Positions 11,973 to 33,857 of a stretch of DNA of 64,000 bases are shown here, piece after piece. This DNA is from Alcaligenaceae bacterium (GTDB lineage Bacteria > Pseudomonadota > Gammaproteobacteria > Burkholderiales > Burkholderiaceae_B). A program made the position numbers and the translations under genes. Positions within the stretch are counted from its first letter, which is position 1, and each line of letters begins with the position of its first letter. The notes beneath the pieces are model-generated. The model saw nothing but the letters and a program-made list of their open reading frames with translations, was not told the origin of the DNA and ran no database searches. The stretch covers positions 62,001 to 126,000 of the forward strand of contig JACCEN010000003.1 in NCBI GenBank assembly GCA_013416435.1. The letters run 5' to 3'.

Positions 11973-13853
11973 ATGCCGCAATATCGTTCACGCACTTCCA
12001 CCCATGGCCGCAACATGGCCGGCGCGCGCGCCCTCTGGCGCGCCACCGGCATGCAGGATGGCGATTTCGAAAAGCCCATCATTGCCGTCGTCAATTCCTT
12101 CACGCAGTTCGTGCCGGGGCACGTGCACCTGAAGGACCTGGGGCAGCTGGTGGCGCGCCAGATCGAGAAGGCGGGCGGCGTGGCAAAGGAATTCAATACG
12201 ATTGCGGTGGACGACGGCATCGCCATGGGGCACGGCGGCATGCTCTATTCCCTGCCATCGCGCGAGCTCATTGCCGACTCCGTCGAATACATGGTCAATG
12301 CCCATTGCGCGGACGCCATGGTGTGCATTTCGAACTGCGACAAGATCACCCCGGGAATGCTGATGGCCGCCATGCGGCTGAACATTCCCGTGGTGTTCGT
12401 GTCGGGCGGCCCCATGGAGGCCGGCAAGGTATTCGAGCCCGGCACCGACAAGGTACTCATGAAGCTGGACCTGATCGACGCCATGATCAAGGCGGCAGAC
12501 CCCAGCGTGACCGACGCCGAGGCGGCCGAGGCCGAGCGCAGCGCCTGCCCCACTTGCGGCTCCTGTTCGGGCATGTTCACCGCCAACTCCATGAACTGCC
12601 TGACCGAAGCGCTGGGCCTGGCCTTGCCTGGCAACGGCACGGTGCTGGCCACCCACGCACGGCGCAAGGCCTTGTTCGAAGAGGCGGGCCGGCTGGTCGT
12701 CGATTTGTGCAAACGCTATTACGAGCAGGACGATGCGTCGGTGCTTCCGCGCAACATCGCCACGATCCAGGCTTTTGAAAACGCCATGGCGCTGGACGTC
12801 TCGATGGGCGGATCCACCAATACCGTGCTGCACCTTCTGGCCGCGGCCCAGGAAGCGGGCGTGGATTTCACCATGTCGGACATCGATCGCATTTCCCGAC
12901 GCGTGCCCTGCCTGTGCAAGGTGGCACCCGCCACCAACAAGTACCACATCGAAGACGTTCACCGCGCGGGCGGCATCATGGGCATCCTGGGCGAACTCGC
13001 ACGCGCCGGGCTGCTCAATCTGGAAGTCGGCAATATCCGCAGCGGCACCCTGGGGCAGGCCATCGCCGACTGGGACGTCAACAGCGGCACCGCCCTGGCG
13101 GAAGTACAGGATTTCTACAAGGCGGCGCCCGGCGGCGTGCGCACCCAGGTGGCCTTCAGCCAGGACCGCCATTACCGCGAACTCGACCTGGATCGCGAAA
13201 ACGGCTGTATCCGCTCGCGCGAGCACGCCTATTCGCAGGATGGCGGCCTGGCCGTCCTGTACGGAAACCTTGCGCCCAAGGGCTGCATCGTCAAGACTGC
13301 CGGCGTGGACGAAAGCATACTGAAGTTCACCGGCGTGGCTCGCGTCTACGAAAGCCAGGAAGACGCCGTCGACGGCATCCTGAACGACCAGGTCAAGGAA
13401 GGCGATGTCGTCGTCATCCGCTACGAAGGCCCCAAGGGCGGCCCCGGCATGCAGGAAATGCTCTACCCCACCTCGTACCTCAAATCCAAAGGCCTGGGCA
13501 AGTGCTCGGCACTGCTCACCGACGGCCGGTTTTCCGGCGGTTCCTCGGGCCTGGTCATCGGCCATGCCTCGCCGGAAGCGGCGGAAGGCGGCAATATCGG
13601 ATTGGTCAACGACGGCGACACCATCGAAATCGACATCCCCAACCGGACCATCCACCTTGCCATCAACGACGACGAACTGTCCCGCCGCCGCGTCGAGATG
13701 GAAGCACGCGGCGCCCAGGCCTGGAAACCCGTCGGCCGCGAGCGCGTGGTATCCCAAGCGCTCCAGGCTTATGCCGCGCTGGCCACCTCGGCCGACCGCG
13801 GCGCCGTGCGCGACGTCTCCCAGTTGAGGGGTCAGACCCCGAACGGGGTCTGA
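11973..13853 (+). CDS. ilvD: Dihydroxy-acid dehydratase, long (E. coli-like) type
   Basis: A 626-residue IlvD/Edd-family dehydratase converting 2,3-dihydroxy-3-methyl acids to the 2-oxo acids of valine and isoleucine synthesis. Cluster-ligand motifs are [12 protein letters not shown] near residue 118 and [15 protein letters not shown] near 191; the first region reads SFTQFVPGH with no Cys, the pattern of E. coli-type enzymes. [16 protein letters not shown] near 523 is the C-terminal signature. The natural C-terminus should lie near AVRDVSQL; the final residues RGQTPNGV and the TGA stop come from a palindromic repeat at 13828-13857. A second, short-type ilvD lies at 20468. Confidence 0.95.
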
Positions 13854-13957
13854 CCCCGTAGGGCGAACGAGTCTAATGCGAAGGGGTCAGACCCCGCATG
13901 GGGTCTGACCCCGGCACCCACACTCTAAGGGTCAGACCCTGTTCAGGGGCTGACCCT
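13828..13957. repeat. Palindromic repeat array 3 (three copies between convergent genes)
   Basis: Copies at 13828-13857 (loop GAAC), 13883-13912 (loop GCAT) and 13928-13957 (loop GTTC). The first lies inside the end of ilvD and supplies its stop codon, continuing four bases beyond it. The third overlaps the end of the minus-strand Rieske gene and supplies its last codons, so the array encodes the C-termini of both flanking proteins. The third copy has AGGGTCAGACCCT as left arm and one unpaired change in the right arm (GGGGC for GGGTC). Confidence 0.95.
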
Positions 13958-15210: not shown

Positions 15211-15240
15211 GGGGTCAGACCCCGTACGGGGTCTGACCCC
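15211..15240. repeat. Palindromic repeat (single copy)
   Basis: Perfect 30-bp copy with loop GTAC, the fully symmetrical form. It lies between the end of the TonB-dependent receptor gene (15249), eight bases away, and the start of the SDR gene (15156); both genes are on the minus strand. Confidence 0.95.
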
Positions 15241-15248
15241 TCAGGTCG

Positions 15249-17315
15249 TCAAAACTTATAACTCAGCCCCGCGCTGAAACTGCGCCCGTTGCCCGATAGG
15301 AACGTGGGCATTGCATCCGTCGCTCGATCGCGGATCACATAGCTGCTGGCATAAGTCTTGTCGGTGATGTTGTCGGCGGCCAGATAGGCGCTCCAGTGCT
15401 TGTCGTGCTGATAGGCCACCCGGAAGCCCAGCAAGGCATAGGAATCCTGTTCCGTACCGCTGACATTGGCATGGTTGGTCGGCGTGGAGGATGGTATCCA
15501 GCGCAGGTTCGGGCCGACGCGCCAACCGCCCACGCGGTACAGGACCTCCGCGGCGATCAAGTGCTTGGGCACGCCGGCGATGTGATTGCCATCGAATTCG
15601 CCGCCGCGGAAGCGGAAGTCGCTGTAGGTATAGGCCAGGCGGTAGTCGAATGCTCCGGCGCCGAAGCCGGGCAGCGTCCCCCTAAGCCCTGCTTCTATGC
15701 CCTGATGTCGCGTGCGTCCGCGATAGTTGTACGTGCCGGCCGATGTGCCATTGGCGTTGCTCACATGCATCAGTTCGTCGCGAACGTTGCTGCGATACAG
15801 TGTCAGGGACCAATTGGCGGCATAGTCGCCGCTGCCCAGTGTGCCGTCGCCGCCGATTTCATAGGTGGTCGCGCGCTGCAGGTCCAGGCGCTGCGGCGCG
15901 GCGGGCGACGAAGCGGAAATGATTTCCCAGTAGGTCGGGGCCTCGTTGCTGCGGCTGATGTTGGCAAACAACCGCAGCGCATCGCTGGGTTTCCAAAGCA
16001 CGCCGGCCTTGGGGCTCGCGTATGACCAGTCCTGATTCAGGGAGATGCCGTTGTTGCGGTTCCGGGCATCGCGGACGGCCTGGGTGTACTTCAGGTCGCC
16101 CACAAGGCTGAATTGATCGGTCAAGTGCCATTGCAGGCCGAGCACGGCACTGCGATTTTCCGCCTGAAGGTCGTAGTCCGCCAACTCGCGCAAGCGGCCG
16201 CCTTCCGGGCTGACGGCATGGAGCTCGCGATCCATGTTGCTGCGGGCCCAGTCCAGCGCCAGACGATAGTCCAGCGAACTCAGCTTGCCCGCCAGTTGCC
16301 ATTGCGCGCCATAGGTATGGCCGGTGGTCGGGTAGGAGACCTCGGGGCTGGTAAAGGTGTCGTCTATGTTCTGCCAGTACACCCCGAAAGTCTGATTCAG
16401 GTCTTCAGTGCCCCAGTAGCTCCGATTGGCGAGCCGCAACTGGCGTGATTTCCGGTTCGGGTCTCGCTTGTATACGTTGATGGGATCATTGGGATAGTCG
16501 CCCATGACGCTGCGCGGATCGCTTTCCAGCCGGCTGCGCGGGATGACATTGGGGATATCGAATTCCAGATCGGTGTACGAGAAATAGGTCCGGTTCTCGA
16601 AGCGGTCGCCCCGCACGCCGAAATTGCCCTGGACGCTGCTGCGTTTCGAGCTGGAATGATGGCGATAGCCGTCGCTTTTGTCGTGGCTGACGCTCAGGCG
16701 GCCGTCCAGCCGCTCGCTTTCGAAGCCTTTGGCGGCATACAGGCCCAGACGGCCGAAGCTTCCTCCGTCCACGCTGATGCCGTCGCCCTGGGTGCCGGTA
16801 AGCGATTGCAGATCCATTTCGCCGCCCAGGGTGGTCGCGCCCGGCGACAGCGCGTTGGCGCCTCTCCTGACGCTGATCAGCCGGCTGTTGCGCGGCTCCA
16901 GAAAGCCGATGACGAAGGATCCGTCCGCTTCGTTCAGCGGCAGGCCGTCCTGCATCAGCAGCACGCCCCGGTTCACCGGATTGCTCTGGATGCCGGAGCC
17001 GCGGATGTTCAGGCGAGGCTGGTCGATGCCGCCGAAGAACTCCTGCACGACGATGCCGGGCTGGAAGTCCAGCGCATCGCGCAGTGTGGCCAGTCGCGGT
17101 TCTTTCTGGGGCTCGATGAGATTGGTGCCGCCGGGCACGCGTTGCAGCTTGGCGGCTTCCGTCCGCGCGCTGGGCTGCAGCGGCGTGGCGCCGCCTTCGC
17201 CTGTAACGAGGACGGGCGCCAAGGTGGAAACCTCATTGGCCTGGGCGCCGGGCAGCCAAAGGGCACCCAGCGCGATGGCCAGGGCGATGCGTGGGAAGGC
17301 GGGCGTAGTGGGCAT
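15249..17315 (-). CDS. TonB-dependent outer-membrane receptor (FecA-like group)
   Basis: A 688-residue beta-barrel receptor. It has a signal peptide ending in ALWLPGAQA, a TonB-box-like APVLVTGEGG, a plug domain with NIRGSGIQSNPVNRG and LMQDGLPLNEADGS, and ends in SYKF, the aromatic C-terminus of outer-membrane barrels. Such proteins import iron chelates, haem, cobalamin and some other nutrients using TonB energy. It is the last gene of an operon whose first gene has a Fur-box-like palindrome, so an iron-related substrate is likely. An in-frame GTG at 17333 is an alternative start, but ATG 17315 gives a more normal signal peptide. Confidence 0.92.
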   Translation of the reverse strand: MPTTPAFPRIALAIALGALWLPGAQANEVSTLAPVLVTGEGGATPLQPSARTEAAKLQRVPGGTNLIEPQKEPRLATLRDALDFQPGIVVQEFFGGIDQPRLNIRGSGIQSNPVNRGVLLMQDGLPLNEADGSFVIGFLEPRNSRLISVRRGANALSPGATTLGGEMDLQSLTGTQGDGISVDGGSFGRLGLYAAKGFESERLDGRLSVSHDKSDGYRHHSSSKRSSVQGNFGVRGDRFENRTYFSYTDLEFDIPNVIPRSRLESDPRSVMGDYPNDPINVYKRDPNRKSRQLRLANRSYWGTEDLNQTFGVYWQNIDDTFTSPEVSYPTTGHTYGAQWQLAGKLSSLDYRLALDWARSNMDRELHAVSPEGGRLRELADYDLQAENRSAVLGLQWHLTDQFSLVGDLKYTQAVRDARNRNNGISLNQDWSYASPKAGVLWKPSDALRLFANISRSNEAPTYWEIISASSPAAPQRLDLQRATTYEIGGDGTLGSGDYAANWSLTLYRSNVRDELMHVSNANGTSAGTYNYRGRTRHQGIEAGLRGTLPGFGAGAFDYRLAYTYSDFRFRGGEFDGNHIAGVPKHLIAAEVLYRVGGWRVGPNLRWIPSSTPTNHANVSGTEQDSYALLGFRVAYQHDKHWSAYLAADNITDKTYASSYVIRDRATDAMPTFLSGNGRSFSAGLSYKF

Positions 17316-17348
17316 TTTTTTCTTTCTCGTCACGAGTTCAGGGACTTG

Positions 17349-17789
17349 TTACCAGTGCAGATAAAACATGGCTTTGGCCAGCAGTACGATGCCGACCATG
17401 TGACAGAAGACGCTCAGGTGGATGCGTTGAAAATGAACGGAATGCAGCTTGCCCTTCTTGCGCAGCGTCATGGCGGTGAAGAAATGGGCCAGCACGCTCA
17501 GCGCCAGGACGATCTTTATCGTCAGCATCAGTCCCATGCTGCTTTCCAAGGGGTGCGCCAGCACGGCGCGGTGGTGCCAGGCCATGCCTAGTCCCGCGCT
17601 GTAGAGCATCAGGAGCACCCAGGGCATGAGTCCGCGCGCGCGGGTGCCGATGGCGATCTCCATGGTTCTCATGACGTCTCGGGGAACATGCTTGCGCACG
17701 TTTTCCAGGATCAGCACCTCGAAAAAGACCGTACCGATGAAAATCAGCGCCGCGAAGAGATGAAGGTTAAGAAGCAAGGCGTAGTTCAT
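17349..17789 (-). CDS. Small four-helix membrane protein, CopD-like
   Basis: A 146-residue inner-membrane protein with four hydrophobic helices (about residues 5-25, 48-68, 82-103, 122-142). Histidines lie in or near the helices: NLHLFAA, MAWHHRAVLAH, LAHFFTAM, QRIHLSVFCHMVG. This resembles small CopD/YcnJ-like or cytochrome b-like proteins, where such His could bind copper or haem, but I cannot assign a family firmly. Start ATG 17789 lies 5 bp after the ATPase gene stop. Its place between an ABC importer and a TonB receptor suggests an inner-membrane role in the same uptake route, for example reduction of a metal complex. Confidence 0.7.
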   Translation of the reverse strand: MNYALLLNLHLFAALIFIGTVFFEVLILENVRKHVPRDVMRTMEIAIGTRARGLMPWVLLMLYSAGLGMAWHHRAVLAHPLESSMGLMLTIKIVLALSVLAHFFTAMTLRKKGKLHSVHFQRIHLSVFCHMVGIVLLAKAMFYLHW

Positions 17790-17794
17790 TCGGA

Positions 17795-18481
17795 TCAAAT
17801 GTCCTGTTTGAGCAAAATGTCGTGAAGATCGCGCGCGACGGAAGCGCGCATGCCGTCCGTGTCGTCGATATCGAACTGGATCAGCTTGCCGCGGGAGATC
17901 AGGATGCAGCGGTCCACCATGTTGACCAGCTCGTGCGGGTGGTGGCTGATGCAAAGCATGGCGGCGCCGGTGTCGCGCAGGCACTGGATGCACAGGGCTC
18001 CGAGGTCGGCGCGCAAGGCGGGGTCCAGCGCGCTGAAGGGTTCGTCCAGCAGCAACAGGTCGGGCTGCAGCGCGAACGCGCGCGCAAGCGCCGCGCGCTG
18101 CGCCATGCCGCCGGATAGCTCCCGCGGCCAGGCGTCGTGGTAGCCGCTCAGCCCCACTTTGCCGAGCCAGTGGTCGGCCCTGTCGCGGGCTTGTTCCTTC
18201 GGGCAGCCTGCCGCCAGCAAAGGGATCTCCACGTTCTCACGCAGGCGCCGCCAGGGCAGCAGCCGGGGCTCCTGGAACACCAGCAGGGGATGGCGGTAGC
18301 TGTTGACCACGGCACCGCTGGTCGCCGGCAGCAGTCCCGCCGCCATCTTGAGCAAGGAACTCTTGCCCGCTCCGCTGGCGCCCAGCACGCCCACGCGCTC
18401 GCCGGCCGCGAGCCTGAAGTCCACGCCGTCCAGAACGCTCCGGGACCCGAATTTCAGTGAAACCTGTCGTAGTTCAAGCAT
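17795..18481 (-). CDS. ABC transporter ATP-binding protein (NitT/TauT type)
   Basis: A 228-residue importer ATPase. Walker A GASGAGKSS is near residue 35, the Q-loop in VFQEPRLLPW, the signature LSGGMAQRAALARA near 128, Walker B LLLLDEPFSALD near 148 and the switch His in CISHHPHE. The PRLLPW sequence after the Q-loop is typical of the nitrate/sulfonate/HMP (SsuB/TauB) group. The frame is open further upstream, across the permease gene, but ATG 18481, two bases after the permease stop, is the sensible start. Second enzyme of the TonB-receptor operon. Confidence 0.92.
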   Translation of the reverse strand: MLELRQVSLKFGSRSVLDGVDFRLAAGERVGVLGASGAGKSSLLKMAAGLLPATSGAVVNSYRHPLLVFQEPRLLPWRRLRENVEIPLLAAGCPKEQARDRADHWLGKVGLSGYHDAWPRELSGGMAQRAALARAFALQPDLLLLDEPFSALDPALRADLGALCIQCLRDTGAAMLCISHHPHELVNMVDRCILISRGKLIQFDIDDTDGMRASVARDLHDILLKQDI

Positions 18482-18483
18482 GT

Positions 18484-19281
18484 TCAAGGCCTTCCGGCTT
18501 TGGCGGGCGTTGAATCCTGCCATTGGGTGAGCCGGCGTTGGATGGGCTGGAGGAGGGTGAATTCCAGCATGGCCACCAGCAGCAGAATCAGGATGACCCA
18601 GGCATAGAGTTCGCCGCTGTCGAAGGTGCTGCGGGCATTGGCGATCGCATAGCCCGCGCCGCTCTCGGCCCCCAGGACCTCGGCCATGACCACCAGCCTG
18701 ACGCCGCCGGCGGTGGCGATCAGCAGGGCGGCGGTCAAGGGTGCGGCCAGGGCGGGCAGGTACAGATGGCGCAGCCGCAGCCATGGACCGTAGCGATAGA
18801 CGTGGGCCATTTCGATCAGTTGGCGATCCACCAGCAGCATGCCCTTGACGGTATTGACATACATGCCGGGCGCCATCATCAGGACGGTGATGAAGATGAC
18901 CATGGGCGAGCCCAGTCCGAACCAGAGCATGGCGAGCACGACCACCACCACCGGCGGAATGGCCATGAGCAGCCAGCGCAGCGGCTCCAGCAGGCCACGC
19001 AGCCGGGCGTAATGCCCGGCGAGCACGCCGAGCACGAACCCTATGCTGCACCCCAGGCCCACACCTATGGCGATGCGCCCCAGCGATTGCCCGGCGTGGT
19101 ACCAGAAACCGTCGTTCTTCAGCATGCCGCCAAGGGCACGCAACGCCTGCAGCGGCGTGGCCATCAGCAGGGGACCCAGGTACATGGCGGCAATCTGCCA
19201 GCCTGCCAGCAGGATCAGCACGCCCGCCAGGGACCAGGTGCGCGATGTGCGTTGGGGCGCGCGCAGCATGGGAGCGCTCAT
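18484..19281 (-). CDS. ABC transporter permease (NitT/TauT type)
   Basis: A 265-residue membrane protein with about six helices and the BPD_transp_1 EAA-like loop around MAHVYRYGPWLRLRHLYLPALAAPL. IPPVVVVVLAMLWFGLGSP is the typical motif of SsuC/TauC permeases. Its ATG overlaps the binding-protein stop codon by four bases (19278-19281), which implies translational coupling within the operon. Confidence 0.92.
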   Translation of the reverse strand: MSAPMLRAPQRTSRTWSLAGVLILLAGWQIAAMYLGPLLMATPLQALRALGGMLKNDGFWYHAGQSLGRIAIGVGLGCSIGFVLGVLAGHYARLRGLLEPLRWLLMAIPPVVVVVLAMLWFGLGSPMVIFITVLMMAPGMYVNTVKGMLLVDRQLIEMAHVYRYGPWLRLRHLYLPALAAPLTAALLIATAGGVRLVVMAEVLGAESGAGYAIANARSTFDSGELYAWVILILLLVAMLEFTLLQPIQRRLTQWQDSTPAKAGRP

Positions 19282-20264
19282 GGTCCGTAGAATCCTGCGT
19301 CAGGCAGACGGCCGCCCACCGCCTGCGGGTTGGTCTTGGCCAGCAGGGCGTACAAGGCTTCGAGCTGAGGACGGACCTCGCGGGCCGGGCGGCTGTCCAG
19401 CCGCGTGGCCTGGATGGCGCTTTCGACGGCTGGAACGGGAAGGTGCGGAATATGTCGCTGGACGAGTTCCGCGCAAGCCCTGGCATTCTGCTTGCACCAG
19501 GCGGCGGACTGGGCGTATGCCCGCTCGACCGCCTCGCTCAGGGCGATGTCGCCTGCGACATTCGAATTGGCCATGATGCCGGCTTGCGGCAACTCTGCCT
19601 GACCGGGGAAGCTGGCACGCCAGGTGTCCTCCAGGCTTTCGACGCGATATAGCGGCTGTCCGCCTTGTTGCTGGTTGCGGAACATCAGCAGGGAGGCCGT
19701 GGGCTCCACCAGCAGCACGCTTTTTCCCTCACCGGTGAGCATCAGCGCGATGGCGTCCTCGGCGCTGCGGGTGCGCCGCAGCTGCGGGGCGCGGTCGCCG
19801 GCAAATTCATCGCGCCCCAGCAAGGTATCGAGCAGTACGGACGGCAGGTCCCGGTGGAATGGCACCAGCAGCTCCTGTCCGGCAAGATCCTGAAAGCGCT
19901 TGATGTCCGGATCCCGGCTCACCAGCCACAGAATGCCCCAGACCGAGATATTGAGCAGCCGGACCGGTTCGCCGCGATTCGCCATGAGAGCGGGCAGGTT
20001 GCTGGGGCTGGCGCTGAAGTCGATTTCCTTCTTGGCGAGCAGCACGCGCAATTGATCCGGATTCTGCCAGAGTCGGAATTCGAGCTTGTCGGTGAACTCC
20101 TTCAGCGCTCCGGACTCGACCATGTGCAGCAAAGGGAAGGTCACCAGGGCCGTGGGACCGGCCAGCGTTATTTTCTGATACTTGGTCGCTGCATGCGCGG
20201 AAGCAAGCATGCAGGCGAATGCCGTGAACAGCGTCGCGGCGAACATTTTCTTCATGGCGGTCAT
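19278..20264 (-). CDS. ABC transporter periplasmic substrate-binding protein (NMT1/THI5-like)
   Basis: A 328-residue binding protein with a signal peptide (MKKMFAATLFTAFACMLASAHA). The mature chain begins KYQKITLAGPTALVTFPLLHMVESG and contains QDLAGQELLVPFHRDLPSVLLDTLL, the layout of the NitT/TauT SBP superfamily (nitrate, sulfonate, thiamine-precursor binders). It is the first gene of a five-gene minus-strand operon ending in a TonB receptor; a Fur-box-like sequence lies 22-34 bp before the start. Start may be 20264 or the internal ATG at 20255. The ligand is unknown. Confidence 0.85.
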   Translation of the reverse strand: MTAMKKMFAATLFTAFACMLASAHAATKYQKITLAGPTALVTFPLLHMVESGALKEFTDKLEFRLWQNPDQLRVLLAKKEIDFSASPSNLPALMANRGEPVRLLNISVWGILWLVSRDPDIKRFQDLAGQELLVPFHRDLPSVLLDTLLGRDEFAGDRAPQLRRTRSAEDAIALMLTGEGKSVLLVEPTASLLMFRNQQQGGQPLYRVESLEDTWRASFPGQAELPQAGIMANSNVAGDIALSEAVERAYAQSAAWCKQNARACAELVQRHIPHLPVPAVESAIQATRLDSRPAREVRPQLEALYALLAKTNPQAVGGRLPDAGFYGP

Positions 20265-20285
20265 TGCCTATTTTGGCCTTTGAAT

Positions 20286-20298
20286 GATAATGATTATC
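20286..20298 (-). promoter_or_regulatory. Fur-box-like operator
   Basis: GATAATGATTATC is a perfect 6-1-6 palindrome identical to two adjacent GATAAT hexamers in the inverted arrangement recognised by Fur. It lies 22-34 bp upstream of the binding-protein start, a position where Fur would cover the promoter or early transcript. No other copy is seen in the window. Confidence 0.8.
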
Positions 20299-20467
20299 AA
20301 TCGCGAATCATTCCATCATTGCCGCCGACAATCCATGATGTAAATCAAGAAATCTCGTTGAGGCGTGTTTTTTGTGCGGTCGCGCGTAAGGCGTCCAAAG
20401 GCGCTAAACTGTTTTCCCGATGCAGGCGCCAGGAATGCTGCGCCCATACTCGAACCAAGGAGGCAAA

Positions 20468-22153
<1,686 letters not shown>

Positions 22154-33736: not shown

Positions 33737-33857
33737 AGGGACAGACCCCGGAAGGGGTCTGTCCCTTGAACCTTACCGCCCCGGGGTCAGACCCCATTCG
33801 GGGTCTGACCCCTGAACCGTCCTGCTCGGGGTCAGACCCCGTACGGGGTCTGACCCC
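33737..33857. repeat. Palindromic repeat array 9 (three copies, upstream of the coiled-coil gene)
   Basis: Copies at 33737-33766 (loop GGAA), 33783-33812 (loop ATTC) and 33828-33857 (loop GTAC), spaced 45-46 bp. The first copy has compensated changes at two positions: A/T at the outer ends and A/T five bases in (AGGGACAG with CTGTCCCT). The spacers TTGAACCTTACCGCCCC and TGAACCGTCCTGCTC match those of the array on the other side of the 33939 gene, although in swapped order. Confidence 0.95.

Follow-up and report, generated by a model that had tools for sequence, protein, structure and literature searches.

A conserved five-gene operon of an Alcaligenaceae bacterium as a candidate two-membrane import route for an iron-linked molecule

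The FecBCD, FhuBCD and HmuTUV systems combine a TonB-dependent receptor, a substrate-binding protein (SBP), a permease and an ATPase with a Fur-like site, and their importers belong to type II. SsuABC, TauABC and NrtABC are ATP-binding cassette (ABC) importers whose SBP fold is common to SsuA, NrtA and Thi5. NnrS is a haem/copper membrane protein of the nitric oxide (NO) response. In the available passages of the papers concerned, NnrS belongs to the DNR, NnrR, NsrR and NorR regulons (PMC1274295), is linked to the relief of iron-NO stress (PMC10256816; PMC11526790), and has a role described as hypothetical or as NO protection. Here we describe an operon that resembles parts of these systems, present in a window of 64,000 nucleotides (contig JACCEN010000003.1, positions 62,001 to 126,000) of an Alcaligenaceae genome. 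In our reading, to which we give a probability of about 0.6, the operon would serve to carry a small molecule linked to iron across both membranes, and an anionic iron chelate, or the ligand of such a chelate, is the likeliest cargo. The gene set and the Fur-like site recall the FecBCD, FhuBCD and HmuTUV systems, but the permease of the window is of type I, matches PF00528 only and gives no FecCD-type match. The operon belongs to a widespread importer family whose more remote members carry NnrS and in some instances adjoin iron genes, and this context suggests an undescribed iron-linked uptake route.

The minus strand carries five tightly packed open reading frames (ORFs) at 20264-15249, which correspond in order to an SBP, a permease, an ATPase, a four-helix protein termed TM4 and a TonB receptor (Table 1). 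The start of the permease gene overlaps the stop of the SBP gene, and the remaining intergenic gaps are of about 2, 5 and 15 bases in order. The receptor (TonB barrel 141.9 bits, Plug 32.3 bits), the permease (BPD_transp_1, 79.9 bits) and the ATPase (ABC_tran, 96.8 bits) all score above their Pfam cut-offs. A sequence-only reading of the window had described five packed genes behind a Fur-box-like sequence, and both parts of this description hold: all five ORFs are in place, and the sequence GATAATGATTATC is present exactly once, within the only strong Fur-like site of the window.

Table 1. Features of the operon and its surroundings, with coordinates in the window
Feature	Coordinates	Strand	Remarks
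SBP, periplasmic substrate-binding protein, 328 residues	19278-20264	-	family of its own close to PDB 3hn0; signal peptide of Sec type, judged by eye
ABC permease, BPD_transp_1, 265 residues	18484-19281	-	start overlapping SBP stop
ABC ATPase, 228 residues	17795-18481	-	Pfam ABC_tran
TM4, four-helix, presumably membrane protein, 146 residues	17349-17789	-	four invariant His; NnrS slot in distant relatives
TonB-dependent receptor, 694 residues	15249-17333	-	nearest solved structures YncD/PqqU; two of three PqqU signature residues missing
Fur-like site, overlapping 19-mers; exact GATAATGATTATC at 20286-20298	20280-20304		consensus match
FNR/DNR-like site TTGATTTACATCAT	20335-20348	-	9 of 10 fixed bases
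Perfect 30-base palindrome, just 3' of receptor stop	15211-15240		dispersed repeat

The association of these genes is conserved. A scan of genome contigs gave 268 encoding stretches, and the best 80 of the 268 were studied as loci. In 30 of them (L072-L100 and L103), the SBP shares 55% identity or more with that of the window; these are referred to as close and the other 50 as distant. Contig ends truncate the close loci L085 and L096, and the distant loci L109 and L144 are cut short. Permease and ATPase genes are present in 29 of the 30 close loci and a window-type receptor lies downstream in 26. TM4 is found downstream in 23 and stands between ATPase and receptor in 22; it follows the receptor in L094, and both receptor and TM4 are missing in L076 and L077 though the contig continues. 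Co-occurrence of SBP, TM4, receptor and NnrS was also followed in a draw of 61 genomes, in which 15 genomes have the SBP, 18 have TM4 and 18 have the receptor when matches with E up to 1e-30 are counted. Eleven of these genomes, that of the window included, contain a close homologue of the receptor (E at most 2.6e-246); it lies beside the SBP gene in 9, with TM4 between them in 7 of those 9, and away from the SBP gene in two (G011 and G031). Receptor and ABC genes are thus together in most relatives, their separation being what the sequence-only reading had expected to find if it were wrong. In G031, a divergent gene (L069) stands in front of the separate receptor gene; the product of L069 shares 39% identity over 182 residues with a regulator of the Crp/FNR type that is encoded near the SBP operon of that same genome (L049). 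The nearest named relative is Parapusillimonas granuli (94%). With the SBP profile, a member was detected in 44 genomes of a family draw of 200 (E up to 1e-15) and in 10 genomes of a phylum draw of 398 (E up to 1e-20).

A second architecture was found in the distant loci. There, the slot after the ATPase, which TM4 occupies in the window lineage, is filled by NnrS in 47 of 50 cases (the exceptions are L109 and L144, which are cut short, and L151, which is not), and a receptor homologous to the haem-receptor-like one of L113 lies upstream in 34. None of the 80 loci has both TM4 and NnrS downstream. In a quick tree of 91 SBP rows with a midpoint root, the window falls in a group of 31 rows with a Shimodaira-Hasegawa-like approximate likelihood ratio test (SH-aLRT) value of 100, in which all 24 rows with TM4 but none with NnrS are found; Arcobacter cloacae, whose row combines TM4 and NnrS, lies outside this group. 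TM4 is about one third of the length of NnrS and has no PF05940 (NnrS) match. Twelve annotated plasmid records, picked for spread of organisms among the matches listed and not sampled, extend the core to Alphaproteobacteria and to further Epsilonproteobacteria. SBP, permease, ATPase and NnrS genes stand in a row in Nitratiruptor, Agrobacterium (where nap genes follow), Cereibacter, Bartonella sp., Paracoccus ferrooxidans and Chelatococcus, whilst a gene is inserted in the row in Arcobacter cloacae (a 135-residue protein) and in Azospirillum (a receptor), and the SBP gene of Sulfurimonas is on the strand opposite to permease, ATPase and NnrS. No NnrS was seen at the SBP loci of Pseudomonas nitroreducens and Neisseria gonorrhoeae, and in Diaphorobacter the SBP gene is accompanied by receptors and a CobN gene, with no adjacent permease or ATPase in a gene table that is incomplete. 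Because the Diaphorobacter receptor upstream of the SBP is 54% identical to that of the window, the window-type receptor is, by this comparison, also found outside the TM4 group. Receptor and NnrS/TM4 partners recur in Alpha-, Beta-, Gamma- and Epsilonproteobacteria.

Promoter sites were scored against a 19-base Fur consensus and against the FNR/DNR pattern TTGAT-N4-ATCAA with its 10 fixed bases. On both strands of the 64 kb, matches of at least 14/19 to the Fur consensus were limited to four overlapping registers upstream of the SBP gene, the best of which reaches 16/19. When up to 3 mismatches are allowed, GATAATGATTATC gives 6 matches against a chance mean of 5.9, so that only the exact match is informative. 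The FNR/DNR-like site lies 30 bases past the Fur-like stretch, and both blocks are conspicuous across seven aligned promoters of the window lineage. Upstream regions were available for 75 of 81 loci (the 80 and the window), L096, L099 and L125 being dropped as they have no clustered SBP ORF and L113, L132 and L139 as they have too little sequence. The 511 control regions lie upstream of other mechanically called ORFs in the same loci, those overlapping the operon's own promoter being excluded. Fur-like sites of at least 13/19 recur in 35 of the 75 operon regions versus 21 of the 511 controls, FNR/DNR-like sites of at least 9/10 in 32 versus 18, and the two together in 19 versus 6, with Fisher p values of about 3e-21, 1e-19 and 1e-13, respectively, all inflated by related sequences. 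The start-to-start spacing of the two sites was compared in the 25 loci with an FNR-like site of at least 9/10 and a Fur-like site of at least 12/19; it is 43-45 in five (the window, L072, L073, L075 and L079), 9-11 in nine (L108, L109, L115 and six Stutzerimonas/Pseudomonas loci) and different in the remaining 11. Since both types of site are enriched and both blocks stand out in the promoters of the window lineage, joint control by iron and by low oxygen or NO is the likely prediction, and the operon is probably Fur-repressed and activated by an FNR/DNR-type regulator.

Genes adjoining the relatives were consistent with both halves of this prediction. A homologue of a DNR-like (Crp/FNR-type) regulator adjoins 21 of the 30 close loci (the top PDB match of its member L039 is DNR, 3dkw, E 2.6e-21) and a globin-like gene is near 20; both are missing beside the window and its nearest kin L072-L075, L078 and L079. 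One globin-like protein, that of L085 (3200-3886), the only one tested, has a sub-threshold Bac_globin match (15.0 versus 21 bits) and a DUF1971 (PF09313) match of 58.9 bits; Paracoccus ferrooxidans has DUF1971 as a separate gene ahead of the SBP gene. On the side of iron, FeoB is downstream in three epsilonproteobacterial loci (L124, L127, L134), with ferritin between in two, and the operon of Nitratiruptor is adjoined by genes for FTR1, imelysin, ferritin and an annotated transcriptional repressor. ChaN, which we take to be haem-linked, and PepSY are neighbours in Arcobacter cloacae. The Cereibacter island holds HutW, HutX, FeoA, a heavy-metal P-type ATPase and a haem/iron ABC set, and an iron ABC set adjoins the NnrS-type operon of Bartonella sp.; in both organisms the iron-type set is separate from the operon. 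With regard to denitrification, NosZ was found, within the family, in 30 of 44 genomes with the SBP versus 19 of 156 without it, kinship being ignored and two 200-genome draws being taken as the same. In the window genome, the NnrS gene is located elsewhere than the operon. Because this genome has no NosZ or NirS match and no NarG match above the cut-off, full denitrification is unlikely as the operon's role there, and the window lineage seems to have kept the operon without it. The sequence-only reading had also proposed an iron-linked substrate; the recurrent Fur-like site and the iron genes flanking some relatives agree with that part, but the low-oxygen/NO half, made of the FNR/DNR-like site, the equivalence with NnrS and the DNR-like neighbours, had been missed.

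Combined, these results are best accounted for by the following scheme. At low iron, Fur would leave the Fur-like stretch upstream of the SBP gene, and an FNR- or DNR-type activator bound at the neighbouring site, in response to low oxygen and/or NO, would turn the operon on. The TonB receptor would bring the molecule into the periplasm, where the SBP would capture it for import by the permease and the ATPase. For TM4, as for NnrS in the distant loci, we propose a role as a haem (or haem/copper) protein of the inner membrane, which would reduce the iron or shield the route from NO. A number of observations weigh against this scheme. In the passages of PMC12124388 and PMC7193533 that deal with them, YncD/PqqU, the nearest solved receptor, carries pyrroloquinoline quinone (PQQ) and not iron. 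TM4 is missing in the close loci L076, L077, L081, L082 and L103, and it occurs without the SBP in 9 of the 18 TM4-bearing genomes of the 61-genome draw, and so is not specific to the system; likewise NnrS, present in 38 of the 61 genomes versus 15 for the SBP, is common without it. Upstream regions below the scores named above amount to 40 of 75 for Fur and 43 of 75 for FNR, and the window holds 4 FNR/DNR-like sites in its 64 kb, which makes this site weak by itself. The DNR-like regulator has no close homologue in the window genome (best 27%), in which NarG is matched below threshold only and NirK and NorB were not searched for. The iron neighbours come from few loci, hand-chosen for reading, and the NosZ association is uncorrected for relatedness and depends on the identity of both 200-genome draws. 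Finally, the conclusions are drawn from sequence and models, from which expression and binding are predicted.

TM4 is the least familiar component. Neither Pfam at E up to 0.1 nor a Foldseek search at E up to 0.001 with its predicted structure (predicted local distance difference test, pLDDT, 87.3) gave a match; the top entries are generic four-helix bundles (de novo designs, cytochrome b6) with no kinship shown. Four His residues (H10, H102, H124 and H130) are invariant in 29 rows, which is compatible with the haem or copper that the sequence-only reading had tentatively placed in the protein. The 135-residue protein of Arcobacter cloacae is 25% identical to TM4, does not conserve H102 and H130, and has a sub-threshold match to the HemJ family (UPF0093; 28.6 versus 34.2 bits). 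TM4 itself is not recognisable as a clear HemJ by hhalign (probability of 0.6% against 12 HemJ rows, with shallow profiles); two HemJ-family matches above cut-off are present elsewhere in the window genome. A paralogue of TM4 lies near a gene that we take to be a gltX look-alike in the window genome (L052) and in five SBP-less genomes of the Alcaligenaceae family (L053, L056, L057, L060, L062). Because this arrangement is found in SBP-less genomes too, the origin of TM4 may lie in a general-purpose membrane protein that was recruited to the system. In genome G009, a TM4-type gene (L063:4929-6651) directly follows a stand-alone NnrS gene, apart from the SBP operon. We add a further proposal, which is tentative and which we hold to be doubtful: NnrS, or TM4 in its stead, would be the inner-membrane redox partner of a widespread TonB-ABC importer for an undescribed iron chelate under low oxygen and NO, reducing the iron of the chelate or preventing its trapping as nitrosyl, and NnrS would then not be, or not only be, a stand-alone NO-stress protein.

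In our ranking of possible cargoes, an iron chelate is favoured and haem comes second, copper complexes and PQQ being less likely. If the cargo were haem or another tetrapyrrole, the operon would serve anoxic haem uptake by a type I importer in place of HmuTUV, which we consider unlikely. The distant receptor of L113 speaks for this explanation, with 277.5 bits against the haem-receptor model TIGR01785 (TonB-hemin, cut-off 316.85) and PhuR and ShuA as best PDB matches, and so do the CobN-like chelatase genes of 6 of 119 searched loci (L102, L104, L114, L144, L146, L167), HutW and HutX beside the Cereibacter copy and ChaN in Arcobacter cloacae. The window receptor, however, obtains only 71.1 bits with the same model, and the haem/iron and iron ABC sets next to the Cereibacter and Bartonella copies are separate ones; canonical haem uptake is weakened on both counts. 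Haem receptors have FRAP-like and NPNL-like boxes, and no conserved His was seen between such boxes in 33 distant receptors.

A copper complex, destined for the copper enzymes of denitrification or for NnrS itself, is improbable. NnrS is termed a cuproprotein in a passage of PMC6769254, NosZ co-occurs with the SBP, and L092 encodes, away from the slot, a second TM4-type protein that matches CopD below threshold (20.4 versus 32.1 bits). The enrichment of Fur-like sites and the absence of a NosZ match in the window genome argue against copper, as do the metal genes beside the loci read, which are mostly iron genes, the P-type ATPase of Cereibacter being also present.

A PqqU/PqqT-like system for PQQ or a similar polycarboxylate cofactor, which appears very improbable, was suggested by the receptor and by the fold of the SBP. 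In the PDB, the window receptor matches only YncD (3.8e-23) and PqqU (7.8e-23) at E up to 0.001, and the best Foldseek match of the SBP model after PDB entry 3hn0 is PqqT, which binds PQQ in the periplasm (9b1v, E 2.1e-16; Z of about 24, level with SsuA). PqqT, however, has no sequence match to the SBP at E up to 1, and the receptor reaches 88.9 bits with the PqqU model NF041535 versus a cut-off of 1200. According to a passage of PMC12124388, PqqU can be recognised by Y99, R304 and R365. In phmmer alignments read by eye, the aromatic position Y99 is Pro in the window receptor and R304 is Glu, with gaps nearby, whereas R365 is retained as Arg; the residues at Y99 (by eye) and R365 are kept in at least 90% of 23 window-type receptors. 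PqqU Q84 and Q121 are replaced as well, by Asp and Val. Since the window receptor is without two of the three signature residues, PQQ is by this residue comparison unlikely as cargo. In addition, YncD is reported as not Fur-regulated in a passage of PMC7193533, whereas the window has a Fur-like site.

The importer itself had been labelled as of NitT/TauT type by the sequence-only reading. This label fits in so far as the models nearest to the permease and the ATPase are SaoP/SsuC/TauC and SsuB/TauB, respectively, but the scores are far below the NCBIfam equivalog cut-offs for the permease (SsuC 68.8 versus 347 and TauC 63.6 versus 342 bits) and for the ATPase (SsuB 143.1 versus 395 and TauB 140.5 versus 357 bits). 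The only clear PDB sequence match of the SBP is 3hn0, BDI_1369 of Parabacteroides distasonis, annotated as a nitrate transport protein, which is its best match both in sequence (profile E 1.1e-20, about 20-22% identity) and in structure (Z 30.9, root-mean-square deviation (rmsd) 2.4, 276 aligned residues; pLDDT of the model 90.8); we know of no functional test of this protein. With SsuA, the model gives a Z of 25.0 and an rmsd of 3.1 over 277 aligned residues, a shared fold that shows no function. In Pfam, the SBP has a sub-threshold VitK2_biosynth/MqnA match only (19.5 bits versus a cut-off of 26). W66, W109, W215 and W256 are invariant in 44 SBPs, and C257 and C264 nearly so. Twin-arginine translocation (Tat) was rejected as the export route: among the 58 of 78 clustered SBPs whose mature start is anchorable, a strict twin-Arg motif is absent from all 27 close rows and present in only 4 of the 31 distant ones. 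That the operon encodes an ordinary sulfonate, nitrate or thiamine-precursor importer, standing by chance near a Fur-like site and a receptor, is very unlikely given these low scores and the recurrence of the receptor and NnrS/TM4 partners over four proteobacterial classes, even with SsuABC/TauABC as nearest models and with an SBP fold shared by SsuA, NrtA and Thi5.

In searches of open-licence PMC papers, we recognised no published account of an SBP-permease-ATPase-NnrS/TM4 unit with a TonB receptor. If an iron-linked import route is indeed encoded, an importer of Alpha-, Beta-, Gamma- and Epsilonproteobacteria would couple iron supply to oxygen/NO sensing, and an uptake route would be common to many denitrifiers. 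NnrS would gain a concrete, testable partner, and a type I, sulfonate-like ABC importer would join the known entry routes for iron-linked compounds in Gram-negative cells.

Some loci differ in what accompanies the SBP gene. In an N. gonorrhoeae record filed among plasmids (L173, 5964-10960), a homologous SBP (34% identical to that of Agrobacterium), a permease and an ATPase are encoded, and NnrS is not adjacent. Two overlapping ORFs precede the SBP gene, the second with a weak TonB-barrel match (26.6 versus 27 bits), and a broken receptor gene is possible. In Nitratiruptor (L172:6985-7938) and Sulfurimonas (L168:6729-7676), a gene annotated as 'transporter' is beside the SBP gene where others have a TonB receptor; that of Nitratiruptor has a Phenol_MetA_deg match and that of Sulfurimonas is 68% alike.

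In the window, the operon is flanked on either side by related dehydratase-like genes (11973-13853 and 20420-22153), presumably of the dihydroxy-acid dehydratase type, and in 7 of 81 loci, counting the window, members of this cluster are found close to the operon. The palindrome GGGGTCAGACCCC..GGGGTCTGACCCC found behind the receptor gene is repeated in the window, for example at 13828-13857 and 33828-33857, and 18 and 19 exact half-sites are present in the 64 kb. Directly behind the receptor gene, this dispersed repeat may be terminator-like.

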